Source: Ceratobasidium sp. AG-K
Taxonomy: Eukaryota > Basidiomycota > Agaricomycetes > Cantharellales > Ceratobasidiaceae
Assembly (NCBI GenBank): GCA_037039685.1
Contig: JAWNGF010000009.1
Coordinates: forward strand, 372,001 to 436,000
Direction of reading: 5' to 3'
Length of the DNA stretch: 64,000 nucleotides
The position numbers and the translations under genes are program-made. The notes under the pieces were generated by a model. The model saw only the letters and a program-made list of their open reading frames with translations, ran no database searches and was not told the origin of the DNA. Below, piece after piece: positions 20,206 to 59,872 of this stretch. The first letter of the stretch is position 1. Each line of letters begins with the position of its first letter.

Positions 20206-20239
20206 TGTAAGGGCTTGTTTATGCAAACAAGCCCTTACA
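20206..20239. repeat. Perfect 15-bp-stem hairpin at the left foldback end
   Basis: TGTAAGGGCTTGTTT, loop ATGC, AAACAAGCCCTTACA. It lies in about 40 bp that the right arm lacks between ...GTGCTA and TACATCTGG, so it looks like a tiny separate insertion in the left arm. Confidence 0.6.
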
Positions 20240-20340
20240 TCTGGGAACTTGTAAATACCTAGGTAGGGATATATATCACTAACTGGCATATATAGGTCCC
20301 CTAGCTGAAATGGAAAGGTCCTGTGTTTATAGCAGTATGT

Positions 20341-21737
20341 AGCAGTAACTGTGGTGACCTGAGTGTATCTGGTGTCACATACCCCCAGCTACTATACTAT
20401 AATGGCTATCTTGTGCTATATGATGCTAGCTGGTGCTGGCTGGTGCTAGGTACTGCTCTGGTCTGGGGGGACAAATCTGGTAATGGACAGAACAATTTTG
20501 GACATGACTAAGCACTGACTAAGCAGTGGCTGTGCAAGTCTAGAAGGGGAAATGTTGTTGAACATCAAGCACATCAATCTGGATTCTAATTGATTGTTAC
20601 ATCAAATTAGTCCTTATTAGGTAATGTTTCATCAAAAAAACTCGGCTGTGGGAAAGTATTTCGCCTTTTTTGCAACCATTTCTGGTCCAAATAAGGTTTG
20701 AGTGGTTGATCTGTAATCAAAAAGATCAGGGGTGTCTGCTGACAAAATTTGGCATAGTTGGAAATTCCTCAACTAGAAAGTGATTTAGCCAATCTGAGAG
20801 TGCTCCACATGACTTTGAGATCAAGTCCCTTTAACCCCCTTGGAATCCCCAATTACCCCTGTTCCCCACCCCCTGCATTACCCCCTTGACTCACCTGGGG
20901 GTATTTTGTAGCATTTAGCCACACTGGTGCATGGGGGACAGAGAACCCATGGCTGGTTCAAAAGTATGATCAAAATTGCCAATGTGACTAAGCATTAGCA
21001 ACATATTTCATTTGGCAAATTTGCACAGCCACTGCTTAGTCAGTGCTTAGTCATGTCCAAAATTGTTCTGTCCATTACCAGATTTGTCCCCCCAGACCAG
21101 AGCAGTACCTAGCACCAGCTAGCACCAGCTAGCATCATATAGCACTAGCTAGCAGCAAACTAGTGTTGTGAGCTAGGCTCACCATGGACTTGTCTTGCGC
21201 CCTCTCCTGCATTTAGTTTGGTGTATGGATAATGTGTCACCCTTGGCCCATATGGCCTTGGCTGTTTTTCAGTTTCTTTAATTCCTTTCTCTGGTGTTCC
21301 CTTTGTCTGGCCACAACCTTGTGGCTACCTTGTTACCATCTTGTAATGCCAGCTGCACTTTGACTGGAGTCATGTCTCTTGATAGAGCATGACTCCTGGA
21401 CACTCCTGATTGGTTAGTTGTATGACTTGTTTCTTGTGGTGGCAGTGCTTAACACTGCTGCGTTTGCCTATATATACAAGCCAAACCAAGCCTGGTGTCC
21501 CCAGCTTGTTTGCCTCGTCATTCACCCTCACAATGTCCCTCTACCTTTAAGTGTTGAGAGTGCACTCAGTGTAGCACTGCTTAGAGTTTCTCAGGCCTTA
21601 GACACCATTCATAGTCATAGTCCTTGCAGTCTCAAGGGAAGTTTGTGACATGTAGCACAAGATAGCCATTATAGTATGCTAGCTGGGGGTATGTGACACC
21701 AGATACACTCAGCTCACCACAGTTACTGCTACAGTTA
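20341..21737. mobile_element. Nested inverted-repeat element inside the foldback arm
   Basis: Ends GTAGCAGTAACTGTGGTGA and the inverse TCACCACAGTTACTGCTAC are inverted repeats of about 200 bp (left 20341-20541; right in two parts, 21022-21146 and about 21651-21737, split by a solo LTR). Further inside, GGACAAATCTGGTAATGGAC at about 20470 has its inverse at about 21070. About 0.9 kb without the LTR. No coding capacity. Confidence 0.7.
21164..21650 (+). repeat. Solo LTR (D/E-related Gypsy family)
   Basis: Starts TGTTGTGAGCTAGGCTCACC and ends GTTTGTGACA. It resembles the LTRs at 52645, 59417 and 63529, which start TGTYGTGAGC and end TTAYGACA. It shares AAGCCTGGT.(A/T)CCCCAGCTTGTTT and a TATATATA box. 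No internal region is present. It splits the right inverted repeat of the nested element. The target duplication is not clear. Confidence 0.7.
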
Positions 21738-23456
21738 GTTACATTACTATATGCAGATATCACGTGCAACAAGGATTTAGCTTGGATCCAAGTAAATCGA
21801 CCTACAGAAAATGTGCGTTAAATACAATAAGATACAGCAGTGTCAGATATACGTAATGCATATCATAGCACGCCTGTAGCATCCCAAATGACTGAGTTGA
21901 AAAATTACTAAACACAAGGCTGTGTCCATACTGTTTTGTAACACATGGTTGTGCTTGAACACTCCCTGTTGGCACTTGTCAACCAGAGGGTTATGGTACC
22001 TGCTATTAAACAGTTATGACACATTTGGGCTACTATCATTGTAGGACAAATTTATTCACTGGTGAGAGAACTAGGATTGCTAAAGATCCACAAAAAAAAG
22101 TGCTGAGCAAGGGATTTAAGGCTCAATGGGTGTGTTACATTTTTGAGCAACTCTAAATGCCACCTAAGATGCCATTTGGGTAAAAGATTGCTGCGGAGTT
22201 ACTACCACAGGTCTTGGGGGGATTTTACATTTGCTTTCCCATTGAAAACAAGTTTTGTATGCGCACACATGAGGCCCACATAGTGATATTACTGCATTTT
22301 GGGATGCTTAATCACTGTCAAATGGCTTGATACTGCCTATACACATGTATAAGTGATAGGAAATTTTGCTGCGCTGAGAATTGCCTTGCTCCAGCACTGT
22401 CAATGGGTTGTTAAGAGGCAAACTTATGGGAGTAAAACGACCCTGTTGCCTTACTCCAGCAAACCTTAGTCACCCCAAGCATTTGAACAGATAATCAAAA
22501 AACAGGGCAGCAGTAATGAGATAAGATCTATGGCTAATTCCTGAATGAGGGTGTCTTTGTTTTAATGAGCTTGTAGAGAAACAATTTAGGTTTGCCGAGG
22601 TAGGGTGCCAAGGTTGTTTCCCCTCTGTAAGTTTGCCTCTTCATGGCCCATCAACGACTTTGGAGCGACGCAATTCTCAGTCCTACAGCAGCTCTTGTTA
22701 TTTATGCATGTCTCTAGTTATCATTGAGCAAGAAAATGATGTTTCAGGGTCCCAAAATGCAATAATACTGCTGCCTGGGCCGCATGTATGTGCAAACAAA
22801 AAGGGTTTCCAATGGGAAAACAAATGTAAAGTACACAAAAACCCCTTCTGATCAATTTAATGAACTATCCTACCCAATGAAAACATCAATTCACATCCAA
22901 GGCCTCTCAAAAATGTATGACACCCATTGAGCCTTGAGCCCCCTGCGCTGTGCCTTGTTTCACATTTATGTAGCAACCTGGGATCTCTTATCATCTGAGA
23001 AAGCTACCCTGAGATAGTGATACACCACTTGTAGTATAATACTCTAACCATGGGTAGTATACTTCCTGAGTTGATGAGCACCAACAGGGGGTGCTCAAGC
23101 TCAAGTGTGTGTTACAAAACAGTATGGGCACAGCCTTGCGTTTAGTAATTTTTCAACTCAGTCATTTTTGGCACTACAGACACAGCAGCTTATACAGTAT
23201 GTAGCCCTGACACTGCTGTATCTTATTGTATTTAACGCACATTTTCTGTAGGTCAATTTACTTGGATCCAAGCCAAATCCTTGTCGCACGTGATTTCTGC
23301 ATATAGTAATGTAACCAACTGTATATACTGCTATAAACACAGGACCTTTCCATTTCAGCTAGGGGACCTATATATGCTAGCTAGTGATATATATCCCTGG
23401 CTAGGTATTTACAGGTTTCCAGATGTACTAGCATGTGCAATTTTTGCTGAGCACTA

Positions 23457-32004: not shown

Positions 32005-32009
32005 GATTT

Positions 32010-33179
32010 TGTTATGGATACTGACATTCTGTCATAGGAATAACATACTGAAATCCAAACCTATGCTTGTGGCGACTTTTCTGCTTGTTTGCATGTATGC
32101 AGTTTTGTAACTGTCTTTACTCCCTCTTGAACGCTACTTTGTGCTACTTCTTTATGTCGATATGTAGTACTCTCTAGTAGCTTCAATTCACTGTCTTTTG
32201 CGTCTCTATATGCGGGGATTTCATAAAGATATGAAATGTCTAAGTTTATTGTCTTTGGCGCTTAGGGAGAGATACATTGTTATACTTGTATCTCCACCAA
32301 TACTGATCCGTTCGCTTAGCTTGAACTTGCGACTGACTCGCAAGCTTTCAATTCAGCCGATCGCACTTGTTTCATGTGAATTGACCGGCTATTTCCCGCG
32401 ATATGTCTCGTGGCTTGTCAAGGTGCTGAAATGACTCATTTCAGCAGCCACCAGATCTTGAGAGCTGCATAGCTTGTAGATAGTGATTTAGTATAGTTAC
32501 TTGACTGGAGCAATTAGTTAGATGACTCATAATATATGTTCCAGCCAACCAAAGCACTCTGACTCCATGAATGCTAGTCATCAAGGCATCAGTGTTCATC
32601 CACCCCTCCTATCATTGGTAGATGCCCCCAATGATAGCCACAACCAGATGACTAGTGTTCTGAGGCCTCTAGGGTATAAATACATGCCCTCTAAGAGCCC
32701 TCCATCCTCACCTCACTCTACATCTGTTGTGCTTTGGCTTGGCTGTGTGATTTCCCCCATTATTGTTGTGTGCCTCAAACAGTATTTGTTAGCCTAAAGA
32801 AAAGGATCTCCTGAGTACCTATTATAGAGGAAAGGTTGCAGACGTCTTATAGTGCTTTTACAAGTAAGAACAAGGAAGGCATTTAGGGAATAGCCTAAGA
32901 TTAGTACATACTTAGTTCATTGCAACTAGGAGTGTGAAACAGTGACATTTAATAGCTAAGGGAACCTGAGCTCAGTACTCCTGCTCTTTCTATTACTAGT
33001 GTACATACACTCTACAGTAGGAAAGCTTAGTATCAATTCCATTAAGTGTGCAACTAGATTGCTTACTTACTGAGAGCATCTCAGACTACTGAGACATTAC
33101 TTTATATTGTTCCACTGTGTGTATTCTGTAGTTATATCACTTGTACATACAAGTAGCTGCAACTCTCAGATATATAACA
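32010..33179 (+). repeat. Element C 5' LTR
   Basis: TGTTATGG...ATATAACA. TATAAA at 32675-32680 marks the likely promoter. A perfect 23-bp palindrome at 32424-32446 is centred on TGACTCA, and a second ATGACTCAT lies at about 32522, both full bZIP (Gcn4/AP-1) consensus sites. Confidence 0.92.
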
Positions 33180-33315
33180 GATTTAGTGATTTGGAAAGAA
33201 AAGCTACAGGGTGTAATTTTCCTTCTTCATCCTTCTGTGACAAAACTGCTCCTGTGGCATTCTGTAGTTATATCACTTGTACATACAAGTAGCTGCAACT
33301 CTCAGATATATAACA
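33180..33315 (+). other. Displaced copy of 3' host flank plus LTR tail inside Element C
   Basis: 33180-33259 is an exact-looking copy of 45146-45225, the Element A pol sequence that flanks the 3' LTR of C. 33260-33315 repeats the last 56 bp of the LTR (33124-33179). The normal internal sequence (TTGGTGAAGCGACCC) begins only at 33316. Confidence 0.9.
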
Positions 33316-33333
33316 TTGGTGAAGCGACCCAGG
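33316..33333 (+). promoter_or_regulatory. Putative primer-binding site of Element C
   Basis: TTGGTGAAGCGACCCAGG starts directly after the duplicated LTR tail. TGG complements a tRNA CCA end. The tRNA species is not assigned. Confidence 0.5.
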
Positions 33334-33394: not shown

Positions 33395-36300
33395 ATGTCT
33401 AGTTCTAATTCTAGCACCTCCTTACATGAATCTAGGACTGTTGCTGCTGAAGAGGAGGTTACTCCTCTAGACTCAGTGTCACAACAAGGACCTAGAACCC
33501 CTACTGCTGGACCCTCCTATCTTCCTCAAAGAAATAGGTGGTCAGCCCATGATGCTCAGTCTGATTGGAGTCTTAACTGGCAAGAGATTGAAGCTGATGA
33601 GGACTACATGTACTCATTAATGCCCTATCTGCCTATGGCCTCCACCTCATTTACTGCACTATCTGAGTCTGATAGAAGGAGACTTATATATACTCCTGCT
33701 ACTGCTCAACTCACTAATACTGTGCGCTAGTATAGTGATATTAATGATAGAAGGAAGCTAGCTAGGGCTATTGGCTGGAAGATTTATTCTAAAAGTCCAA
33801 TTCCTCATGAGCATAACATCTACCTATCAATTCAAGGAAGAAAATGGGCAGCCTCTTATCTTCAGACTCTGGATACCTTTTGTGTATTTGCTCCTAAATG
33901 GATACACAACCCTTCTCAAGATGTAGTTATGGATTTTAATCATACACTACATGGATCTTTTAAAAGAGATCTGAAGGTTCTGTATAGGCAGCACTGTCAA
34001 AGGGAGATTCCAGAAGATGAAGTGGACCATCCTGAAGTTCCTTCCTACCCTGCAACAGAGACTTACACTACATTCAATAAAGCTCAGCATGAAATAGCTG
34101 CTGTAGTTTATAGGGATGAAGTGGAGCGCTTTTTGGCTTACATTTACAGGGAATTAAGAAGGAATGAGGATAAAGGTAAGAGCAAAGCTATTCAAGGTCA
34201 TATGGAAACTGTGTTGTCACATAATTCCACAGACTTTGACCAGTTCCCCATATATGCTCCTAGAGCTAGAGAAGCTGCTGAAGCAGTAGTTACTAATCCT
34301 AACCCCCTTGCTCTCAGGCAAGAGTCTGAAGATCCAGTAACTACTATGACACCTTCTCTGGTTCCAAGGTATTACCATAGGCGCAAATCTGGTGCTTTTG
34401 GTTTTATCAAGACTAGGTCTAATAGTCCTGAAGACAATGAGATTAGAAAAAGTCCCATACCAATGGTTACTCCCCTCAGGAGTACTCCATTTGTTGGAGG
34501 AGCTCAGTTTACACCTGGGCTAATGCAACAACTTGGTCAATCTTCTAATCCTCAAGTTTCAGTACTAGGCCCTGCTACTAATACTGCATTTGGCCTACCT
34601 GGAAATAGTACTACTGGAATAGGTCCTAGAAAATCAGGAATGGTTTCCCAACCATTGAGCTTTTCCTTCTTCAATAAGGATTCCATGAAACCTATTGAGG
34701 AAGAAACAATACCTGAGACTCCTAGTAGACCTAAAGTTGGATCAGGAAGAGTGATGGGAAGAAGGCTCTCCAATATGATAGGAGGTACTCTGTCTTCTCC
34801 TCCACCTGCTTTAACCCAACCTCCTACTGCAGTAGTTTCTCAATTAGGACCCAAAGTTAGTAGTATACTACAACCTACTAATACTCAGCCTAGTGTTGCA
34901 CCTGTGGAAGTAACTGCTGCACCTGTTGTAGTTGATCCTTACTCTAATGATACTCTTAGAAGGCCTAGACATAGGTCCAGAGCTCCCTTGGAGGAAGGAG
35001 AAACTGCTGAGATTCTTCAGCCATCTCCCATAAGGTACAATCAATATGGACATATAGAAAGGTTGAATCAACATGCTACTGGCATGATTGCCACCAAACA
35101 ACCAGACCTTAAGGATGGTAAAGACCTAAGTAACCATGAAGGAAGTCAGAGAACTCCTCCTGATCAACCTAGGAATCCACCCTATTGGCACCATGGTGGA
35201 CCACCTGGAGCTGGTCCTTCTGATCAAGGAGGAAACCCAGGCAATGGTGGTTCAGGCAATGGTGGGAATCCTCCTAATCCTCCTGGAGGCAATGGTGACC
35301 CATATGGTCCCCCTGGAGGTAATGGTGGTCCTCCTGGAGGCAATGGTGGTCCCCCTAATGGGAATGGTGGTCCTCCAATTCCTCCAATTCCTCCACAGGG
35401 TAGACAAGGTGGTGGTCCTCCTGGTCCCCCTGGTCCTCCTGGTGGTGGGAATTACTACTATCTAGTAGGTCCTCCTGGTCCCCCTGGACCTCCAGGACCT
35501 GCAGGAACAGCTCCCAGGCTTACTAGACCACATTTTGATTTGCGTCTCAAAATAGAACAGGTGGTACCCAAATACTATGGTGGTGCAGAAGAGCTGATGG
35601 AATGGATCACTCAATTGGACCATGTAGTAAGGAGACACCCAGATCTCTTGGGAGAACTGGGTTATGTAGTACCACTAAGGTTTGAGAAGGATGCCAAAAT
35701 ATGGTTTAATGCACTAGATCCTGCTTGGCAGCAATATATGATGCAGGACTGGCGCCTTATGAAGGAAAATATGGCTAGATACTTCTGGAACCCCCATTGG
35801 CTCAACAAGTTGAGATCTAAAGCTCATCAGGCCAAGTATAGGGAACCAGGTAAAGATACTGAGTCAGAAACTCCTTCACAGTATATCATGCGCAAGAAAG
35901 ACCTTCTTGATGCAGCATATACTTTCACAGATCCAGAAGCTATTGAGGAAGTGCTTAGAGGAGCTCCCCAGCAATGGAAAACTCTGCTCAGCACTGCAAC
36001 TCTTGCTACATGGATGGACTTCATGTTCAAGGTCAAGGAGATTGAAGAACTGCTACAGGACTTCAAACACTCCAAATCTGACTCATACAAGAGTTCTGAC
36101 TTCAACAAAGCTTTTGAGACTTGGAGGCATGAAAGGAGAGAAAAGAAGAAGGAGAAAAAGAAAGCTAGAGTACATGCTGTGAATACTCCCAGCTCTGGGA
36201 AGAAACCTCATGTGCCTAACTACCCTCCTGATGACAAGAATGTGTCTAAAGTCACTCCTGCCTCCCAAGGAAAGCGCCCTTGCTGGCACTGTGGTAGTGG

Positions 36301-36484
36301 TAATCACTGGGATAACCACTGCAAATATGCCAGGAAGAATGCCACTAAGGCTAGGGTGCACTTTGCTAGTATTGAAGGTGATGAGCTTAGAGAACAAGAG
36401 GAGTATGAAGCAGCTGAAGCAGGTTTTAGTAGCAGTTCTGAATCATCAGAAGAGGATGATGAGTCTGACTCTGAGGATTTTTAG
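33395..36484 (+). CDS. Element C Gag, single frame with one internal TAG
   Basis: The frame runs from ATG 33395 to TAG 36482-36484 with one stop, TAG at 33728-33730; no other stop interrupts about 1,029 codons. The second part (from ATG 33929) holds a disordered Pro/Ser/Thr region, then a collagen-like stretch of GNGGPP and GPPGPPGPP repeats (35190-35510), a retrotransposon-gag core (PKYYGGAEELMEWITQLDHV, WFNALDPAWQQYM, PSQYIMRKKDLLDA), a Lys-rich segment, the zinc knuckle CWHCGSGNHWDNHC and an acidic Ser-rich tail. The internal TAG may be read through, may be a recent lesion, or translation may start at 33929. Confidence 0.85.
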
Positions 36485-39400
36485 AACTGTCCCAGGCAGC
36501 TCTGGTTGTTTCAAACCCTGAAACAAGTGCAGAGAACCTAGGGACAACTACTAATGGCTCAGAGACTGCAACTAACTTCAATGCTGTAGCTAATACTGAA
36601 TCTCTAAGTTCAAAGTATACTACAGTAGTGATGCCTCCCAAATCTAAGGTATTCTCCACCAAGGCTAGCTCCCAATTGTCCAAAATAGTCCTTCAAAAGA
36701 CTATGGCCAGACCTCCTGGAACATCTTTCCTAGGAGCTTCCGCTACCACTGTCCTTGCAAGACTAGGTGGACCTCAAGAAGAGGAATTACCATTGACTGT
36801 GGATACAGGTTCTGATATCACACTAGTCAATAAGGATTTCCTCAGCACTCTAAAGGTCCAACCAAAGATCAAGGTGGGGCAGAATGTCCAGTTAATCCAA
36901 GTAACAGGAAAGTCAAGGATTAATGGTTACATTGTGATGCCAATAATCTTTGAGACTCCTGAGGGTCCTGTAGAATTGACAGTAGAAGCCTATGTAGTTC
37001 CTAAGATGAACACTAGATTCCTTCTAGGTAATGACTTTGCAGCTCAATTCAAGTTGTCTATTGATAGAAGTGACCCTAAGGTAACCTACCTTAAGCTGGG
37101 AAACTCTGGAAGGCAAATTGAAGCTCAAGAGTCAGTTACCAACCCAAGAACTGATGATGCTGGCAATGTCTTCAGTGTGCAGGTTGAACCAACATCTGAG
37201 GACAACTCCTCTTCCAAGGCTTCAAAAACCAAAGGGAGGAGGTCAAGCAAGGAATTACCATACTCTTCAGATTTTCAGTTAGTACACCTAGCTCAGGATG
37301 TCATTCTGGAACCTGAGAGCATGACCAAAGTACCCATCCAAGTGGATTGGATACAAGACTTGAATGAAGGATTCATAGAACAGTTGGAATACTCTAAGAA
37401 TGGCAATGAAGATAGACAGAAATGTGGTATCACCAATTGCATCATTTCTAGAGATACTACACATGTTCAAATGATGAATTTATCCAAAGCTGCAGTCAAT
37501 CTCACTCAAGGAGATGCAATAGGACACTTATATGATCCCAACCAATACCTAGATCACTCTGAGAACCTTTCTGAAAGTGATCTAGCAAAAGGGATTGTGA
37601 AGTGCAACCTAATCAAAGCCCACTTGTCTGAAATGCCACTTCCCAAGCCTACTGAGGAAGAGATATTGCTATCTCAACCTGTGGAAGGAGGTCCAAAGAC
37701 TAGTGAGTTACCTGACCCAGACCATATCAAGAAGGACCAATTGTTATCTGAAATACACTTTGGAGAAAATCTAACTCTAGATCAAAAGAAGAAATTAGAG
37801 CAATTGGTACTGAAACACTTCATGGCATTTGGTCTGGATGGGAGATTAGGAACCTATCCTGCTGAAGTAGAGATTAAGCTGGTACCAGGTGCAAAGGAAA
37901 TATCTTTAGCTCCTTATTCTGCCTCCCCTGCAAAAAGGGAAGTCATTGACAAGCAAGTCAAGGAATGGTTAAGGCTGGGAGTAATCCAACCTTCCAAGAG
38001 TCCTTGGGGTTTTCCAGTACTAATAGTGTTTAGGAATGGTAAAGCCAGGCTTTGCATTGACTACAGAGAACTGAATAAGATTGCTGTACCTGATCAATTC
38101 CCTTTGCCAAGGCAAACTGACATCCTCCATACTCTGGAAGGATCTCAGTACCTTACCACACTAGATGCTCTAGCTGGATTTACTCAGTTAAGTATCAAAC
38201 CTGAAGACAGACCTAAAACAGCCTTCAGAATACATGATGGACTATTTGAGTTCACTAGGCTACCTTTTGGGTTCAGAAATGGACCTGCTGTGTTTCAAAG
38301 GGTAATGAGTGATGTACTAGCCCCATTTCTGTGGATCTTTGCATTGGTCTATATAGATGACATTGTAGTATTCAGCAAGACTTTTGAAGATCATTACAAA
38401 CATCTGGATTTAGTGTTTGGAGCCATAGCAGCTGCTGGAATCACCTTGTCACCCATTAAATGCTTCATAGCCTACCAGTCACTTATATTACTGGGGCAAA
38501 AGGTATCCAGACTTGGTCTCTCCACTCACAAACAGAAAGTGGATGCTATAATCCAACTGGAAGCACCTAAGGACAAAGCTACCTTGCGCACATTCTTAGG
38601 TATGACTGGTTATTTTTCCAGTTATATTCCATTCTATGCTTGGATCATTGCACCCCTACTACCCTTGTTAAAGAAGGATGCTGAGTGGAAATGGGATGAA
38701 TTGAAGCAAAATGCATTTGAACTAGCTAAAACAGCTCTTGTTTCAGCTCCTGTAATGGCTTATCCTATACCAGGACTGCCCTACAGAGTATATACAGATG
38801 CCTGTGACTTTGGTTTAGGTGCTATCTTGCAACAAGTACAACCCATGCTGATCAAGGACCTCAAAGGTACCAAGCTATATGAAAGGCTGAGGAAAGTCTA
38901 TGATTTAGGAAAGGATGTACCACTTTTGGTGATCCCTGACTCCAAGCAAAAGGACAACCTGACTGGGGGGGATGAGAATGAGGATTCTGAAAGTTTTGTA
39001 ATCCATGATAAGTGGGCTAAAAACTTTGAAGACACCATAGTCCATGTAGAAAGAGTCATTGCCTACTGGTCTAGAATTCTTATCCCTGCAGAGAGGAACT
39101 ATTCACCCACTGAGAGAGAAGCTTTGGCCCTCAAGGAAGGACTTATTAAGTTCCAACCTTACATTGAAGGGACAAAGTTTCTAGCAATCACAGATCATGC
39201 TGCCCTTACTTGGAGTAGAACCTTCCAGAATGTGAATACTAGGCTTCTGAGATGGGGCCTTACCTTTGCTGCCTATCCAGGCATGAAAATCATTCACAGA
39301 GCTGGAAGAGTACACTCTAATGTAGATCCTGTGTCCAGACTAAGGCGCAGAATACCACTACAAGATGGCCCTGTTGCAGATGATAGTACACCCCTTGTAC

Positions 39401-41115
39401 TGAGTACAGATGAGGATCCCATAAAGAACCTTTATAAGGAACTTGGGGAGAGGTTTGAAGAAAAACTTCTAGCTAATGTAAAAAGGTGCTTGTCCATTCC
39501 TGGAGGTGTTACAATACCCCTTGAGAATGATTTCAGTACTAATGCACTGGCTTTTCAGACAAATTCAAGGCACTACTTAACTGTGAGTATCAGTAAAGAG
39601 GAATTAGAGCACTTTATGCAAGGATATGAGAAGGATGAACACTTCAATAAGGTCCTACAAAGCCTTAGAGCAGCTCATGATCCTATGAACCCACCCTGGT
39701 CACAGTACAAGATTGGAGACAATGGATTAATATACTTCTGCAGGCAGGACAGCTATCTTTTGTGTGTCCCAAAAGATCTACAGCTGAGTATAGTATCTGA
39801 AGTGCATAATGGACTTGCTGAAAGTGCTCATGCTGGCTTTCACAAGACCTACAATAGCATTGCTTCAGTATACTACTGGCCATCAATGTCCAGGACAATC
39901 AAACAGTATGTAACCACTTGTGACATTTGTCAGAAGGCAAAACCCAAAAGGCATGGGCAAAGAGGTTTCTTGCAACCTATTCCAATCCCCACTCAACCTT
40001 TTGAAGTTATAACCATGGATTTCATTATGGACTTACCTATAAGTAATAGTTATAATGCTATCTTGACTATAGTTGACAAACTAACCAAGTATGCATTCTT
40101 CATACCCTGCAGTACTACCATTAATGAGAAGGAGACAGCCCAGTTGTTCCATGATCATATATGGATGCACTATGGACTGCCTTGCCAGGTTATTACTGAT
40201 AGAGATACTAGGTGGACTGGAGCCTTCTGGGAACATCTTACAGCTCTAGTTGGTATTCAGTGCTCACTAACAACTGCCTATCACCCACAGGCAGATGGCC
40301 AGAGTGAGATTATGAATCAGACACTAGAAATAGCTCTGAGATGCTTTGTGGAACCATCAATGGATAACTGGAGTGACCTATTACCAGGTTTCACATTTGC
40401 CTACAACACTACTGTGCATATTGCCACAGGTTTTACACCTGCATACCTTCTTAGAGGTTACCAACCACTCAAGACCTCAGATTTGTTGGCTCAAACAGCC
40501 CAAGCTATGGAGCGCCTTAATGTGAAAGATCCTGCTGCTGAGAATTTTGCTGAAGGAATGAATTCCATTCGCTTACAGGCTACCAATGCTCTCACTGTTG
40601 GACAAGCTAAGCAGAAGGAGTATTACAACAAGGATAGGAGCTTTATTACCTTTGAGCCAGGAGACCAAGTCCTTATTAATCCTCATACCCTTAGACTGCT
40701 TAGGCAGCATAAAGGAAAGGGAACCAAGCTTCTAATGCGCTATGATGGACCTTTCACTGTCAAAGAAAGAGTCTCTGATGTTTCTTATAGGCTAGAAATC
40801 CCTTCCAGCTATAAGATACATCCAGTAATCAACATTGCACATTTAGAGTCTTACAATAAGGATAAATCTGATATTGAGAGGCCTACTAAGAACCTGAGCA
40901 GAGAGGACTTCAAGAACCATCCTGAATATGAAGTTGAAGCCATTCTGAAAGAGAAATGGGTAAAGAAGAGACATAGGCGGCAAAAAGAGTACTTAGTTAA
41001 GTTCTTAGGCTATGATGATACTCATAATCTATGGCTTAACAAGAGAGCACTCACCAATGCTCCTGAGATACTGAGAGAATGGGAACAGAAAAAAATAGCT
41101 GAAAATGCGAATTAA
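36475..41115 (+). CDS. Element C Pol: protease, RT, RNase H, integrase, chromodomain
   Basis: Open in the -1 frame relative to Gag from 36475; first ATG at 36628. Counting from that ATG: aspartic protease LTVDTGSDITLV at about residue 55, RT with RLPFGFRNGPAVFQRVM and VYIDDIVVFS (YIDD near 575), RNase H RVYTDACDFGLGAIL with an acidic insertion of about 75 residues before RVIAYWSRILIPAERNYSP. The integrase HHCC finger includes HAGFHKTYN and CDICQKAK. The core D-D-E lies in TMDFIMDLP/TIVDKLTKYAF, ITDRDTRWTG and HPQADGQSEIMNQ. The C-terminal chromodomain reads YEVEAILKEKW...KEYLVKFLGYDDTHNLWL. It appears intact and active. Confidence 0.95.
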   Translation, partial: GFLELSQAALVVSNPETSAENLGTTTNGSETATNFNAVANTESLSSKYTTVVMPPKSKVFSTKASSQLSKIVLQKTMARPPGTSFLGASATTVLARLGGPQEEELPLTVDTGSDITLVNKDFLSTLKVQPKIKVGQNVQLIQVTGKSRINGYIVMPIIFETPEGPVELTVEAYVVPKMNTRFLLGNDFAAQFKLSIDRSDPKVTYLKLGNSGRQIEAQESVTNPRTDDAGNVFSVQVEPTSEDNSSSKASKTKGRRSSKELPYSSDFQLVHLAQDVILEPESMTKVPIQVDWIQDLNEGFIEQLEYSKNGNEDRQKCGITNCIISRDTTHVQMMNLSKAAVNLTQGDAIGHLYDPNQYLDHSENLSESDLAKGIVKCNLIKAHLSEMPLPKPTEEEILLSQPVEGGPKTSELPDPDHIKKDQLLSEIHFGENLTLDQKKKLEQLVLKHFMAFGLDGRLGTYPAEVEIKLVPGAKEISLAPYSASPAKREVIDKQVKEWLRLGVIQPSKSPWGFPVLIVFRNGKARLCIDYRELNKIAVPDQFPLPRQTDILHTLEGSQYLTTLDALAGFTQLSIKPEDRPKTAFRIHDGLFEFTRLPFGFRNGPAVFQRVMSDVLAPFLWIFALVYIDDIVVFSKTFEDHYKHLDLVFGAIAAAGITLSPIKCFIAYQSLILLGQKVSRLGLSTHKQKVDAIIQLEAPKDKATLRTFLGMTGYFSSYIPFYAWIIAPLLPLLKKDAEWKWDELKQNAFELAKTALVSAPVMAYPIPGLPYRVYTDACDFGLGAILQQVQPMLIKDLKGTKLYERLRKVYDLGKDVPLLVIPDSKQKDNLTGGDENEDSESFVIHDKWAKNFEDTIVHVERVIAYWSRILIPAERNYSPTEREALALKEGLIKFQPYIEGTKFLAITDHAALTWSRTFQNVNTRLLRWGLTFAAYPGMKIIHRAGRVHSNVDPVSRLRRRIPLQDGPVADDSTPLVLSTDEDPIKNLYKELGERFEEKLLANVKRCLSIPGGVTIPLENDFSTNALAFQTNSRHYLTVSISKEELEHFMQGYEKDEHFNKVLQSLRAAHDPMNPPWSQYKIGDNGLIYFCRQDSYLLCVPKDLQLSIVSEVHNGLAESAHAGFHKTYNSIASVYYWPSMSRTIKQYVTTCDICQKAKPKRHGQRGFLQPIPIPTQPFEVITMDFIMDLPISNSYNAILTIVDKLTKYAFFIPCSTTINEKETAQLFHDHIWMHYGLPCQVITDRDTRWTGAFWEHLTALVGIQCSLTTAYHPQADGQSEIMNQTLEIALRCFVEPSMDNWSDLLPGFTFAYNTTVHIATGFTPAYLLRGYQPLKTSDLLAQTAQAMERLNVKDPAAENFAEGMNSIRLQATNALTVGQAKQKEYYNKDRSFITFEPGDQVLINPHTLRLLRQHKGKGTKLLMRYDGPFTVKERVSDVSYRLEIPSSYKIHPVINIAHLESYNKDKSDIERPTKNLSREDFKNHPEYEVEAILKEKWVKKRHRRQKEYLVKFLGYDDTHNLWLNKRALTNAPEILREWEQKKIAENAN

Positions 41116-41264
41116 CTCCCCATTATATTCCAGACATCATGGTTATACTCTCTGGATCTCAGTTTGCTACTTTTGACAGTCCAGCGCTTAAGGCCTGTCA
41201 AACATAACAAATTGCTGTTGAACTCACTGCGCTCTGATACCACCACTACATACTCTTTTTCACT

Positions 41265-41633
41265 ATGGTTAATGACCTCCCTTCGCTTATCATGTTTGTT
41301 CTGTTGCTTCCCAGTATATTTGGCATAGCAGCAGTAGTCTATTGGTATAGGCAACATGGATATCAACATGTCAAATGGAGCGCCCATGTTGAAGTCAAAG
41401 TCTTAGACCCCCACACCTACAGGTTGGACTATCACATTGGTATAGTTAGGTATTCCATCCCTGGTAGGCTCTCTCTCAAAGTAAATGGGAGAGATAAACC
41501 TGTAAATATCACTCCCCATGATGTTTGCAAGGTTACAGTCATCACTGGAGATGAGGAATTCGCTTCCATAGGCATTCCTCTTGACAGTATGACCCATTTG
41601 ACAAGGCCTGAACCTGCCTATCATCCTCAGTAA
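41265..41633 (+). CDS. Element C cargo ORF 1: small single-pass membrane protein
   Basis: ATG 41265 opens MVNDLPS followed by the hydrophobic run LIMFVLLLPSIFGIAAVVYW (residues 8-27) and basic YRQHG, a signal-anchor pattern. The remaining 90 residues are beta-rich (HVEVKVLDPHTYRLDYHIGI, CKVTVITGDEE) with no known family. The stop TAA overlaps a perfect donor (CAGTAAGT at 41629), and an acceptor CTAG/GTACAG follows, so an extended 3' exon is possible. It lies 149 bases after pol and inside both LTRs. Confidence 0.6.
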   Translation: MVNDLPSLIMFVLLLPSIFGIAAVVYWYRQHGYQHVKWSAHVEVKVLDPHTYRLDYHIGIVRYSIPGRLSLKVNGRDKPVNITPHDVCKVTVITGDEEFASIGIPLDSMTHLTRPEPAYHPQ

Positions 41634-42090
41634 GTACTTTGCATTATAAGCTATTTTACTAGGTACTGATTGGCCTGTACAGAGTCTCCCAATCCTATCT
41701 TTCATTCACTTAAGTTCATGTCGCTTGGTTTACATGTAGTCACATGATCTGTTACAATGTTACCTGACTTGATCCTTGTAATCTGTGAGATGATAAGGAA
41801 CTGTAACAGATCAAAGGTGATCTTGAATGCCGGAATTTCTGTCTGTTTGGGTCTAAAAAGGGAATCAAAACTCTAAACTGCCTTATGATAGGAAGCTCTG
41901 ACATCATAGAGCCACTGAATTCACATGTTAGATTTCGCATTCTTGAGCTTATTTTGAGGGTATTGACCTATCTTAGAAAGATCTGGATGTTTTCCCCATG
42001 CACAAACTCTTGGAACTTAATGATGTATTAAGCTCAGAGCCTCTGAATCGTCTCCATCAAGTCTCCTTATCTGCACACTTCCAGTCTACT

Positions 42091-42699
42091 ATGTCTAACT
42101 CCCTAGACTCAACTGCTGCTCCAGAGCGACCCCCTACTCCTCCTGGTATATTGGATATCTTGGCTAGCCAAGGATGGGCTAGATACCAATGGGTTCTTTC
42201 TGGACCAGGAGTGCATTGTGATGTCAATCCTGACTATGACTCAGAGTCTGGTGAGTATGGCTGTGTCCCCTAATACTTTAGGCTGACTATCTATCCTATC
42301 AGATGATGAGGAAGGACCTAGTGCTCCTGATACCTGGCTGGATGACTTTGTCAAGTATACTCCTGTCAATTATGGGTATGATGGACCACTTTGGGCTGGT
42401 ACATGGGATAAGTGAGTATTCTGATGCTCCACTATGCAAGGCTAACTTTACTTTGAAGTTCTAGGCTTGCTGAGGACCAGATCTGGGACGATTTTTCAGA
42501 TTGGGACTCAGAAGAGTCTGCTGAGGAGGTGCCTGTCTCCCCCTCCATGCCTCCTCTGATGGAAGTGGTTACTGACTCACTCTGGAATGTTCCTAACAAT
42601 GAGGAGATTCCAGATGATCAGGATCCTCCTTTGGAGCCTGCTGACCTTGAAAGGTTTGTGGCCCAGATCTTGACTGAAATTAGCCAAGGATCCCATTGA
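42091..42699 (+). CDS. Element C cargo ORF 2: three-exon acidic protein
   Basis: Exons 42091-42250, 42303-42411 and 42465-42699 (504 nt, 167 residues). Intron 1 is 52 nt (GTGAGT, branch GCTGAC, ATCAG), intron 2 is 53 nt (GTGAGT, branch GCTAAC, TCTAG), and frame is kept across both joins. The product starts MSNSLDSTAAPERPPTPPGI, has DTWLDDFVKYTPVNYGYDGP, then a very acidic Trp-containing segment (IWDDFSDWDSEESAEE) and ends FVAQILTEISQGSH. An in-frame ATG at 41998 could extend it by 31 residues. No domain is recognised. The acidic/aromatic composition resembles activation or interaction domains, which is only an impression. Confidence 0.7.
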
Positions 42700-42939
42700 T
42701 TGCATGTAATTACCCATTCTGAATGTATCTGAATGAATCACCTTTCCCTTGGAATGCTGAGTGATAAGGTGTACCACATGGAATAGAAGTACTTGTGCTA
42801 ATCTTTGGTGTGACTCAGAACAAAGAACTACTCCATGAGCGCTTTTTCTGAGTAATTCTTGAGAGTATGACTCCATTCCACAGAGACCTGGAATGTCTAA
42901 GTCCAAATTCTCATGAGGATGCAGGTAGAGATGGAAAGG

Positions 42940-42947
42940 TATATAAC
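42940..42947 (+). promoter_or_regulatory. Internal TATA box before cargo ORF 3
   Basis: GGTATATAAC lies 118 bases upstream of the ATG at 43058, followed by a pyrimidine-rich leader (43000-43050). It suggests independent transcription of ORF 3. The adjoining TATATAACA...TGAAGCGAC echoes the LTR-end/PBS junction of C. Confidence 0.5.
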
Positions 42948-43057
42948 AAGGCTCTCTGAAGCGACTACAGACCAGCAGCAGTCTCTACAGACAAGCTCTC
43001 TTCTACATTCTTGCCTTCACTCTTACTTTCCATTTCCTATCACTTTCCTACCCCAAG

Positions 43058-43930
43058 ATGTGCTTGAACAAGACTAGTTCTATGCCTGTGCACCATGTTA
43101 GGTTCTTGGCTACTAGATATGCCAATATCCTGCAAGCATATGGCCCCTACTATGTAGAGCAGGACTCAGGCTTTTTCATGTCACCATCTATTCTTGAGCG
43201 CAAGTTCAGGGAGGGAATTGAGGTTTGCTGCACTGAGCAGGATGGGAAAAAGCTTTGGTACTTATCCACTGCTACTGTCCTTGCTCTTGTAGATGCCTTG
43301 CTTCAGATTAGGGATATTGTTGGCAATTATTGTGACACTATGGAACATATTGACAACTATAACTCTGATTCTCCCTTGTACAATGCTTTTAAGGAGGCTA
43401 GGCTAAGCTACCCTGCTGAACCTTGTCTACTAGACCCCCATGTTCGCCCTGGAACACCTTTCCAGAATGAATTTTGGGAGGTTAGTTTCTCCTCCAAGGA
43501 AGAACTTGATTTCAGGGTGTCCCACTGTCAACTTTGGGCCCTTGGTATGATAGTTGCTCTCCACTGCCTTGCCCTGTTCAAAGGTGCATGTGCTAAGTGT
43601 ATTCCTATGGACCTGCCTCCTTGGCCTTGTGGTCACATGAAGTTGGCTAGGGCTCATTGGGAGCACTGCTTGGAATGGACTAGGGAGCATTCTGCCCATT
43701 CCCCTGATCCTGCCTTCTTCCCCTCTTCACCCACCTTCCTGCCTTCTGATACTTCCAAGGATTCTGGTTGTACTGAGGCTGTTATCCAGGAGGAAGAAGA
43801 TGAGGATCAGATTGAGGTGGACCATAATGACCTGAATGGATTTGAGGAGCAAACTGGGCGCATTTTTGAGCCTTCTCCCCTGTTCCACTTTTTCTTTGGT
43901 CAGAATGGTGCCATTGCTGTCTCTGCCTAG
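43058..43930 (+). CDS. Element C cargo ORF 3: 290-residue protein of unknown function
   Basis: A single uninterrupted exon; start context CCCCAAGATG. N-terminal half: VRFLATRYANILQAYGPYYV, LWYLSTATVLALVDALLQIR. The middle has a hydrophobic stretch ALGMIVALHCLALF followed by a Cys/His cluster (CAKC, then WPCGH) that could bind zinc. The C-terminus is disordered and acidic (QEEEDEDQIEVDHN). No homology is recognised by eye. It ends 45 bases before the 3' LTR at 43976. Its length, intactness and own TATA box argue for a functional gene carried by the element. Confidence 0.65.
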   Translation: MCLNKTSSMPVHHVRFLATRYANILQAYGPYYVEQDSGFFMSPSILERKFREGIEVCCTEQDGKKLWYLSTATVLALVDALLQIRDIVGNYCDTMEHIDNYNSDSPLYNAFKEARLSYPAEPCLLDPHVRPGTPFQNEFWEVSFSSKEELDFRVSHCQLWALGMIVALHCLALFKGACAKCIPMDLPPWPCGHMKLARAHWEHCLEWTREHSAHSPDPAFFPSSPTFLPSDTSKDSGCTEAVIQEEEDEDQIEVDHNDLNGFEEQTGRIFEPSPLFHFFFGQNGAIAVSA

Positions 43931-43975
43931 CTTGCTAGCTTGTAAGTCAACCATATGTTTGGATTGGGAGGGCTA

Positions 43976-45145
43976 TGTTATGGATACTGACATTCTGTCA
44001 TAGGAATAACATACTGAAATCCAAACCTATGCTTGTGGCGACTTTTCTGCTTGTTTGCATGTATGCAGTTTTGTAACTGTCTTTACTCCCTCTTGAGCGC
44101 TACTTTGTGCTACTTCTTTATGTCGATATGTAGTACTCTCTAGTAGCTTCAATTCACTGTCTTTTGCGTCTCTATATGCGGGGATTTCATAAAGATATGA
44201 AATGTCTAAGTTTATTGTCTTTGGCGCTTAGGGAGAGATACATTGTTATACTTGTATCTCCACCAATACTGATCCGTTCGCTTAGCTTGAACTTGCGACT
44301 GACTCGCAAGCTTTCAATTCAGCCGATCGCACTTGTTTCATGTGAATTGACCGGCTATTTCCCGCGATATGTCTCGTGGCTTGTCAAGGTGCTGAAATGA
44401 CTCATTTCAGCAGCCACCAGATCTTGAGAGCTGCATAGCTTGTAGATAGTGATTTAGTATAGTTACTTGACTGGAGCAATTAGTTAGATGACTCATAATA
44501 TATGTTCCAGCCAACCAAAGCACTCTGACTCCATGAATGCTAGTCATCAAGGCATCAGTGTTCATCCACCCCTCCTATCATTGGTAGATGCCCCCAATGA
44601 TAGCCACAACCAGATGACTAGTGTTCTGAGGCCTCTAGGGTATAAATACATGCCCTCTAAGAGCCCTCCATCCTCACCTCACTCTACATCTGTTGTGCTT
44701 TGGCTTGGCTGTGTGATTTCCCCCATTATTGTTGTGTGCCTCAAACAGTATTTGTTAGCCTAAAGAAAAGGATCTCCTGAGTACCTATTATAGAGGAAAG
44801 GTTGCAGACGTCTTATAGTGCTTTTACAAGTAAGAACAAGGAAGGCATTTAGGGAATAGCCTAAGATTAGTACATACTTAGTTCATTGCAACTAGGAGTG
44901 TGAAACAGTGACATTTAATAGCTAAGGGAACCTGAGCTCAGTACTCCTGCTCTTTCTATTACTAGTGTACATACACTCTACAGTAGGAAAGCTTAGTATC
45001 AATTCCATTAAGTGTGCAACTAGATTGCTTACTTACTGAGAGCATCTCAGACTACTGAGACATTACTTTATATTGTTCCACTGTGTGTATTCTGTAGTTA
45101 TATCACTTGTACATACAAGTAGCTGCAACTCTCAGATATATAACA
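43976..45145 (+). repeat. Element C 3' LTR
   Basis: 1170 bp, practically identical to 32010-33179. Preceded by GGATTGGGAGGGCTA as polypurine-like tract and followed by the GATTT target duplication. Confidence 0.92.
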
Positions 45146-46796
45146 GATTTAGTGATTTGGAAAGAAAAGCTACAGGGTGTAATTTTCCTTCTTCATCCTT
45201 CTGTGACAAAACTGCTCCTGTGGCAAATCCCAACGCGTCTGTCTCGAGGAAAAATTCCTTCTTTTGATCGGGCTGCATCATTACAGGTGCCACCTTAAGA
45301 GCCTTTTTTAGTGTGTTCATGGCCTCTTGTTCTTTGCTTGTCCACTGCCGCTTTTGATCCTTCTTAAGTAGGTTATATAGAGGTCTGGCTTTGCCAGCAA
45401 AGTCTTGGATGAATCTTCGATAGAAGTTGATGAATCCTAGGAACTCTTGAACTTGTTTGACATTCTTGGGAGCCTTCCAATTCATAGCCGCCGTGACCTT
45501 TTCCTGATCCGTTTCGATTCCTTTATTGGAAATGACCAATCCTACCCAGTCCAGTTTGGTTTGGTGGAACTTGCATTTTCTCAATTTTGCAACCAGCTTG
45601 TGTTCCCTTAGTCTTCTTAGCACCTCTTTCACATGTCCTGGATGATCTTCGACTTGTTTGGAAAAAACAAAGATATCATCAATGTATACGAGTACAAAAA
45701 CCCCCATAATGTCCCTGAATATAGAATTCATTAGGGACTGGAAACTTGATGGAGCGTTTTTGAGACCGAAGGGCATGACTTTCCATTTGTACATGCCGTA
45801 TTGAGTTTTAAATGCTGTTTTCCATTCATGGCCTGCTGCTATTTGGGTTTGGTGGAATCCCTGTGCCAAGTCTAGAGTGGTGCCAATGACGAATCCTTCC
45901 AGGGCCCTTAACCATTGGTCCAGTAGTGGTATTCCACTTGCGTTGAATTTGCATAGTGAATTCACATATCTGTAGTCAACGCAAAAGCGTAACTCTGGGT
46001 TGTTTGGATCTTCTGGATGTGGTTTTTTGACAAACAGAACCGGGGAAGCCAAAGGGGACTTAGAAATCTGAATGTGTCCTCTTTGGATCAGGGTTTCTAG
46101 TACTTTCTTCATTTCTTTGTCTTCAGCTGGGGACGTTTTGTAAATAGGGCTGTGCTTTAGTTTAGCTTCTGGTAGGAGGTCAAGCGTAATGTCAGTTGGC
46201 CTGTGAGGTGGGAGTTCTTCTAATCTGGATTTGTCAAATACATCTGCGAACTCTTTGTATTCCTCTGGTAATGTAGTTTCAGCTGCAATTTGGAGTGTAG
46301 ACGGGATTTCTAGGCAGTTTTTTGAGCAGAATTCGCTTGTGTATGCAATTGTCCTATTTTTCCAATTAATTTGTGGGTTATGTTTCTTGAGCCATGACAT
46401 CCCAAGTACGATAGGGTGTCTTCCAATGTTTGTGACATGACATTCTATTTTGCTGGAATGTGTTCCCATGACAAGCTTAAATTTGGTATAGTGGGTGACT
46501 TTTCCAGACGAGACTTCTCGTCCGTCTATAACCCGCAGAGTCTTTGGTTTTTCATGTTGGAAAAGGGGAAGGTTTGCTTCTTTTGCTAGGGAAGGGTTGA
46601 TGAAACAGGAGGTTGTGCCGCAGTCGAGGAGTGCTTGTCCAGAGAATCTTTTCGATCTGTTAACTGACTTAGAATCAGGAGCCGTAGCTAGTGGATGAGC
46701 GGTGAAATCAAGGTATAATTGGTTTTCATTTGATATTGACATGATTTCTAGTTCATCCATATTACTAGCTAATATATCATCAAGTACTTGGCTCCT
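45146..46796 (-). CDS. Element A pol, 5' part: protease, RT, RNase H start
   Basis: Pol frame -1 to gag. The first ATG is at 46760, but the frame is open upstream across the gag end. The protease motif is ALLDCGTTSCFI (Cys in place of the usual Ser/Thr after Asp). RT shows LRFCVDYRYVNSLC, MPFGLKNAPSSFQ and VYIDDIFVFS, then a thumb, and the RNase H start FFLETDALGFATGAVLSQ. The frame is cut by Element C after FLSKSLN and resumes at 32004 on the other side. It has no other stops. Confidence 0.9.
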
Positions 46797-59416: not shown

Positions 59417-59872
59417 TGTCGTGAGCTAGCTCACTCCATCGGACTCACCCATTGTCGCGCCCGCCTGTCTTCCCTCTTGTGTTACGTTCCCCGTTTCCGT
59501 TTGCCGCGTTGCCACCTTCTTGTGGTTATTCTGTTACATTGTGTAACGCGGCTGTGCTTTGTACGAGTCATGTCTGTTCATACAGCATGACTCACATGGA
59601 CACTCCTGACTGGTTGACTGCTGTGACTCATGTGGCTGCGCTCTGTATGACTCGGCCACTTCTTGAATATATATAGAGGACCAACAAGCCTGGTAACCCC
59701 AGCTTGTTTTGTCTCATCAAACATTCCCTTTGAGTGACACTTTGAACCACCCCTACCCTCGAGAGCCTACAGACACTTAAGTGTGTTGCGGTTCAAAAGG
59801 TCACTTAGGTCTTAGTGCCGTCCACTCTCCATCACGGCTTGCCTCATAGCCACCAAGAAGAAGCTTACGACA
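59417..59872 (+). repeat. Element D 3' LTR
   Basis: 456 bp; differs from the 5' LTR at five positions, all CG versus CA or TG. Confidence 0.93.

Follow-up and report, generated by a model that had tools for sequence, protein, structure and literature searches.

Two introns retained in a predicted accessory gene of a Ceratobasidium chromovirus and a candidate intron across its polypurine tract

Results

Architecture of Element C

The window analysed here is a stretch of 64,000 nucleotides from Ceratobasidium sp. AG-K (GenBank assembly GCA_037039685.1, contig JAWNGF010000009.1, positions 372,001 to 436,000 of the forward strand), and coordinates are positions in this window unless a contig is named. 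It contains an LTR retrotransposon, referred to as Element C, with the following parts.

32005-32009, no strand: target-site duplication GATTT, 5' copy (partner at 45146-45150)
32010-33179, + strand: 5' LTR of 1170 nt; a TATA-like box lies near 32675 (pair alignment; the LTR of other copies ends at the equivalent of 33179)
33180-33315, + strand: extra stretch in the window copy (alignment with its own 3' flank and LTR end)
33316-33333, + strand: primer-binding-site-like stretch (by eye, directly after the LTR end)
33395-36484, + strand: gag-like ORF with a CCHC knuckle seen by eye and an in-frame stop at 33728-33730 (ORF list)
36475-41115, + strand: pol ORF with protease, RT, RNase H, integrase and chromodomain, in the -1 frame relative to gag (ORF list, Pfam)
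41265-41633, + strand: ORF A, 122 aa, with an N-terminus that looks hydrophobic by eye (ORF; 11 matches in the own genome)
41630-41682, + strand: intron-like unit i0, 53 nt, its donor overlapping the ORF A stop codon (strict motif scan)
42091-42250, + strand: ORF B, exon 1 (gene model, coding phase)
42251-42302, + strand: ORF B, predicted intron 1, 52 nt, GTGAGT..CTGAC..CAG (donor, branch and acceptor motifs; other genomic copies)
42303-42411, + strand: ORF B, exon 2 (gene model, coding phase)
42412-42464, + strand: ORF B, predicted intron 2, 53 nt, GTGAGT..CTAAC..TAG (motifs; other genomic copies)
42465-42699, + strand: ORF B, exon 3, with TGA at its end (gene model, coding phase)
42940-42946, + strand: TATATAA box upstream of ORF C, a possible internal promoter (by eye)
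43058-43930, + strand: ORF C, 290 aa; related sequences in other elements and in two records from outside (protein search)
43942-44003, + strand: intron-like unit i3, 62 nt, covering the polypurine tract and reaching 28 nt into the 3' LTR (strict motif scan)
43961-43975, + strand: polypurine tract (by eye, adjoining the LTR start)
43976-45145, + strand: 3' LTR (pair alignment)
45146-45150, no strand: target-site duplication GATTT, 3' copy (partner at 32005-32009)

Element C is a Ty3/gypsy chromovirus, because it combines the corresponding domain order in pol, including a C-terminal chromodomain, with LTRs, a target-site duplication, a primer-binding site and a polypurine tract. Pfam places RVT_1, RNase H, zf-H2C2 (integrase zinc-binding), rve and Chromo in this order along pol, with the matches to rve, zf-H2C2 and gag-asp_proteas lying below the curated cut-offs, and it returned no match for the gag-like ORF (33731-36481) at E<=0.001. 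There was likewise no Pfam match for ORFs A, B and C, for record P0003, or for the gene B'' of the sister families described below.

The two LTRs differ by 1 mismatch in 1166 aligned bases. The preliminary description of this DNA had called the element active-looking, which agrees with the near-identical LTRs and the GATTT duplication and is qualified by the in-frame gag stop of the window copy. That stop occurs in the window copy only, among 7 copies in which the gag start was read, and was rejected as a feature of the family since the 6 other copies lack it. The extra stretch at 33180-33315 consists of ~80 nt identical to the element's own 3' host flank (from 45146) followed by a repeat of ~65 nt of the LTR end, and it likely reflects a repair or conversion event that brought host flank into the element.

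The TATATAA box before ORF C (42940-42946) is accompanied by a CT-rich leader and looks like an internal promoter by eye. Two records, P0002 and P0003, are related to ORF C, one in a JGI contig (59% identity) and one in Ceratobasidium sp. AG-Ba (36%). Elsewhere in the window, nested inverted repeats occupy 20227-23436, with arms of 85-133 nt that are 90-98% complementary.

Coding evidence for gene B

Once the predicted introns are removed, ORF B reads as 167 codons plus TGA in a single frame across its three exons. Three in-frame exons, introns of 52 and 53 nt and a 167-residue acidic protein had been claimed for this place, with GTGAGT donors, CTRAY branch points and AG acceptors, in a setting between pol and the 3' LTR. 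All of this was confirmed: the coordinates are exact, the donors are GTGAGT in both introns, the branch points CTGAC and CTAAC, the acceptors CAG and TAG, and the pol domains lie upstream and the 3' LTR downstream. The protein is indeed acidic, with a pI of 4.05, 37 aspartate and glutamate residues, 5 lysine and arginine residues, a single cysteine, and clusters that pair W, F or Y with D or E; that it works like an activator or associates with particles is a guess. An upstream in-frame ATG at 41998, which is missing from copy c7b, would add 31 aa and bring the total to 198 aa.

Searching 41634-43057 for the longest ORF that can be assembled with host-like introns yielded the 198-aa form (167 aa from 42091). 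In 1000 dinucleotide shuffles of the same region, no spliced ORF of 120 aa or more was found and the maximum was 90 aa, and the same spliced-ORF search on the reverse strand of the region found none. A codon-use model trained on gag, pol and ORF C of Element C gave +0.349, +0.573 and +0.465 bits per codon for exons 1, 2 and 3, in the predicted phase only, while both introns and two gaps scored <=0.061 in every phase. Host tubulin introns, picked by motif between exon matches, measure 46, 47, 53 and 47 nt (the last two, of 53 and 47 nt, are also readable as 49 and 55 nt) and their signals are styled like those of B; the tubulin intron scan of a fourth genomic piece (L089) reported none. Because of the shuffles, the phase-specific codon bias and the style of the tubulin introns, B is, as judged from its sequence, a host-style gene model well beyond chance, and its splice sites are predicted to be used by the spliceosome.

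Retention of both introns among genomic copies

The organism's own genome was searched (53.6 Mb in 17 contigs; all copy counts are lower bounds), and the 3' region of Element C was found in at least 11 copies, 10 of which carry the B module at 99-100% identity. Each of these ten has all three exons and both introns, with an exact join between exon 1 and intron 1, all four splice sites unchanged, and no stop or indel in B. A spliced junction of intron 1 or intron 2 was found nowhere in the own genome at <=3 mismatches, and the idea of a spliced or processed copy of B or i3 elsewhere in the genome was rejected on the same threshold, with 0 spliced joins for introns 1, 2 and i3.

An alignment of other copies of Element C had been proposed as a check in the preliminary description, and its outcome, with both introns in 10/10 B copies at 8 distinct 3' junctions, the missing spliced junctions and the open frame of B in all ten, supports the regulated splicing suggested there, in which an unspliced genomic RNA exists beside a spliced subgenomic mRNA. 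Family copies with stops or indels in the exons, or without the module, had been named as counter-evidence; the former were seen in none of the ten copies, and the module is lacking in one of 11.

This copy, c2c (L080/L062, contig C2, 3265644-3270560), contains A and C and has lost B through a 746-nt deletion between short imperfect repeats. It was rejected as a product of splicing, since its junction is a short imperfect repeat without GT-AG. In an unrooted tree c2c groups with copies c8b and c4 (support 0.895), and a derived deletion is preferred over an ancestral empty state. Because c2c lacks B, the gene would be dispensable or supplied in trans.

The deletion in c2c is what one would point to if B were a non-working, decaying relic whose introns were never recognised and behave as plain sequence, and such a reading could also draw on a gene model that is known from sequence alone and has no Pfam match. 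Ten copies of ten without a stop or indel, a codon bias that is phase-specific in all three exons, and shuffles of which 0/1000 come close all argue in the other direction, and I regard a relic as very unlikely.

The history of the insertions determines whether the introns were ever exposed to reverse transcription. Matching target-site duplications mark five events (the window copy, c4, c7a, c3, and the tandem pair c2a/c2b), LTR identity in copies with such duplications is 99.8-100%, and with five insertion events of this kind the introns have therefore passed through RNA. The tandem pair (contig C2, 6588391-6613480) has a middle LTR common to both members, and a GAGCG duplication flanks the pair as a whole. 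The remaining copies are less complete or less regular: the 5' LTR of c8a, c7b and c10 is absent from the fetched piece, and the LTRs of c8b are 97.9% alike, with no matching target-site duplication. Copies c4 and c8b (L042 and L040) have an identical 533-bp 3' flank and different 5' flanks, so that one of the two likely arose from DNA recombination, and the 3' flanks of c7b, c8a and c10 contain related repeats at other distances and orientations. The shared flank of c4 and c8b and the common LTR of the tandem pair are the kind of evidence expected if the copies had spread by DNA-level recombination or duplication, with the introns never tested by RNA passage. For the family as a whole this is highly improbable, given five events with matching duplications at different sites and near-identical LTRs, and 5' flanks that, where compared, do not match one another.

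None of the 8 distinct 3' junctions among the ten B copies is intronless, which places intron loss per insertion at <=31% (95% upper bound), or at <=45% if only the five events with target-site duplications are used. Distinct synonymous and nonsynonymous codon changes number 2 and 3 in B (all 3 nonsynonymous ones in c10), 3 and 5 in A, and 2 and 9 in C, and ORF C of c2a has a frame-breaking gap; the recent codon variation in A, B and C among copies thus gives no sign of purifying selection.

Origin of B and sister families

When the own genome was searched with the protein of B at E<=1, only the 10 element copies came up and no donor host gene, and no host gene with the exon structure of B was found in these 53.6 Mb at the same threshold. 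Against 5.8 billion proteins at E<=10, the only match was record P0001, which equals exon 1 of B read on into the intron. Searches of plasmid records and viral contigs gave no lead.

Related elements in the same genome were compared over the last 271 residues of pol. In the L069 element (54% identity), another ORF occupies the position of A, ORF C has a relative (38% identity, E 8.6e-16), and the polypurine tract leads into an LTR start that resembles that of Element C. A relationship between ORF A and its positional counterpart in L069 was rejected, as there was no match at E<=10, and B is absent from the gap of ~670 nt between the ORF at the A-place and the C-like ORF. In L069, GTAAGC adjoins the stop of the ORF at the A-place, comparable to the GTAAGT donor of i0 in Element C.

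The L084/L085 element (53% identity) has a C-like ORF (E 3.7e-4) with two in-frame stops, followed in order by a gene termed B'', a further ORF that includes a hydrophobic stretch, the polypurine tract, and a start resembling that of an LTR. B'' encodes a W-rich protein of 158 aa and is predicted to be spliced via one 52-nt intron. In the L090 element (49% identity, one stop in the compared part of pol), the exons of B'' are 57-63% identical to those of L084/L085, and the intron has the same length and place, with the donor GTAAGC and the branch CTAACCC kept and the acceptor decayed to CAA instead of CAG. Between the two, 20 of the 52 intron bases agree, and the exons have diverged with a dN of 0.286 and a dS of 0.986 (NG86). 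Another relative of B'' (L091, contig C4, 4723560-4723860) is 41% identical and intronless through the junction. The own-genome matches to B'' number 9, among them one to exon 1 and one to exon 2 on C7, 7 kb apart, and two on C12, to exon 1 only; outside relatives were not found at E<=1. Homology of B to B'' was not supported, since 210/1000 shuffles score as high. Because two sister families carry another intron-bearing extra gene, such genes look like a habit of the lineage.

The alternative offered in the preliminary description was a recent capture of a host gene at the DNA level. Worked out further, the introns would have come with the gene, few copies would have been made since, and splicing of the genomic RNA would be too rare to show yet. 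It suits a capture that B was found in family C only and is missing from the corresponding gap in L069, and that a single outside record (P0001) matches it. Nevertheless, no donor appeared in the 53.6-Mb genome at E<=1, the introns are present at eight distinct junctions, and intron-bearing accessory genes occur in two sister families. Recent capture is therefore unsupported, the own genome having given only element copies, although a donor could be elsewhere; I consider it quite improbable, and a retrovirus-like split between two kinds of RNA is favoured over it.

An intron-like unit across the polypurine tract

A strict motif scan of the whole of Element C reported 4 intron-like units, namely i0, the two in B, and i3. 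Every one of them lies 3' of pol on the sense strand, and none was found in gag-pol or on the reverse strand. For the whole element this number is not unusual (shuffle mean 3.75, with 95/200 shuffles reaching 4), while for 41116-44010 the shuffle mean is 0.525 and 3/200 shuffles reach 4. The unusual feature of these predicted units is thus their placement rather than their total number.

The last unit, i3, begins 11 nt past the stop codon of ORF C and ends at LTR base 28. A unit of the i3 type, 61 nt long and in the strict form, is present in L069, L070 and L071, and L084 has one of 62 nt with a relaxed donor, GTTAGT; the type is absent from the older L090 family and from the single control family tested (at 59417). 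Of 2000 shuffled junctions each, 21 gave an i3-type unit for C, 32 for L069, and 57 for L084 with the relaxed donor. The pattern of donor, tract and LTR was found at 12 places, one in each of the 11 family C copies and one in L069. The branch motif of i3 lies within the LTR end, a part that integration may keep conserved in any case. The strict scan also picked out a unit within the C-like ORF of L069 that is probably spurious, which shows that the motif alone yields false positives.

A copy spliced at i3 was not found in the own genome at <=3 mismatches. Such absence is expected by the mechanism proposed below, because an RNA of this kind could not complete reverse transcription; it is equally expected if i3 is never spliced. 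What is new here is the predicted intron-like unit that covers the polypurine tract and extends into the LTR; family C and one sister family have it, and a second sister family has it with a relaxed donor.

Discussion

With a probability of roughly 60%, the three-exon accessory gene, which keeps both introns in all ten copies, reflects a division in which the RNA that is reverse transcribed escapes splicing and a separate, spliced mRNA makes the accessory protein. I infer that unspliced transcripts are exported and packaged. Retention of this kind is not the default, because a sense intron introduced into Ty1 is removed during the life cycle, according to the part of the account available (PMC12786077).

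How the two RNAs would be kept apart is a more tentative matter. An RNA spliced at i3 (43942-44003) would be without the plus-strand primer and the U3 end and could serve as mRNA only; it would be barred from replication because both of these parts are lost. If the 3' introns were spliced together, every daughter copy would descend from unspliced RNA, and the B introns would thereby be kept without a dedicated export factor. This gate would require a coupling of i3 to the B introns, which is hypothetical. That the lineage sorts messages from genomes in this way, by an intron across the polypurine tract, with the spliceosome as the switch and introns kept indefinitely without a Rev-like export factor, is a possibility to which I give limited weight.

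The promoter-like TATATAA and CT-rich leader before ORF C suggest another arrangement, in which B (and C) would be expressed from internal promoters as short mRNAs, spliced as the host-style introns of B would lead one to expect, while the long LTR-driven RNA escapes splicing by promoter, speed or chromatin and the unit across the polypurine tract is uninvolved. By eye there is no clear TATA box before B, however, and a transcript that bears splice sites is normally processed by the spliceosome, so that the escape itself would be left unexplained; this arrangement appears rather unlikely.

The division between an unspliced genome and spliced messages that I favour has parallels elsewhere. Complex retroviruses possess multiply spliced accessory genes and resemble Element C in having introns inside 3' accessory genes and unspliced RNA as the genome. 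Retained splice sites together with an intact ORF, as looked for in a retrovirus-like element, are present in all ten B copies. Element C differs from complex retroviruses in that a basic protein of the Rev type was not seen and the intron across the polypurine tract is proposed as the gate instead. The intron of Ogre elements is located within gag-pol, whereas gag-pol of Element C is without a strict intron-like unit. Ogre elements of legumes have functional introns and, in the portion of text at hand, are alternatively spliced LTR elements that, like Element C, keep an intron through RNA replication (PMC12786077).

A role in export is described for HIV-1 Rev, and in Cer1 of C. elegans the protein CERV, made from a spliced mRNA, is needed to export the unspliced RNA and has an essential cysteine-rich loop, as far as the accessible sections state (PMC10309623). 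In Element C both introns lie inside the extra gene, and protein B is small and acidic and, with its one cysteine, has no loop of the CERV type. EVADE and other Ty1/Copia elements are described, in the extract available, as making both a full-length RNA that stays unspliced and a spliced subgenomic mRNA from a single element, with splicing and early polyadenylation boosting GAG (PMC8892269); predicted splicing in Element C would instead yield an accessory protein near the 3' end. Among fungi, Tcn1-like chromoviruses are Gypsy elements with a chromodomain, some of them with an additional ORF of unknown function, and the excerpt available mentions no spliced gene for them (PMC2864245). Among the literature matches listed, which comprised titles and abstract starts and covered few subscription papers, there was no fungal LTR element with a spliced accessory gene and none with an intron across the polypurine tract.

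Sense introns in elements copied through RNA are normally lost, in one direction only, and for this reason serve as markers of retrotransposition, as the available passage explains (PMC12786077). Because two sense introns are kept in every B copy found, the family must keep its genomic RNA apart from its mRNA. In the parts of the literature at hand, a nematode achieves this with an export factor and plants with partial splicing (PMC10309623, PMC12786077, PMC8892269). If the mechanism proposed here is true, the element would encode this separation in its own sequence, through the intron across the polypurine tract, and the idea is directly testable.
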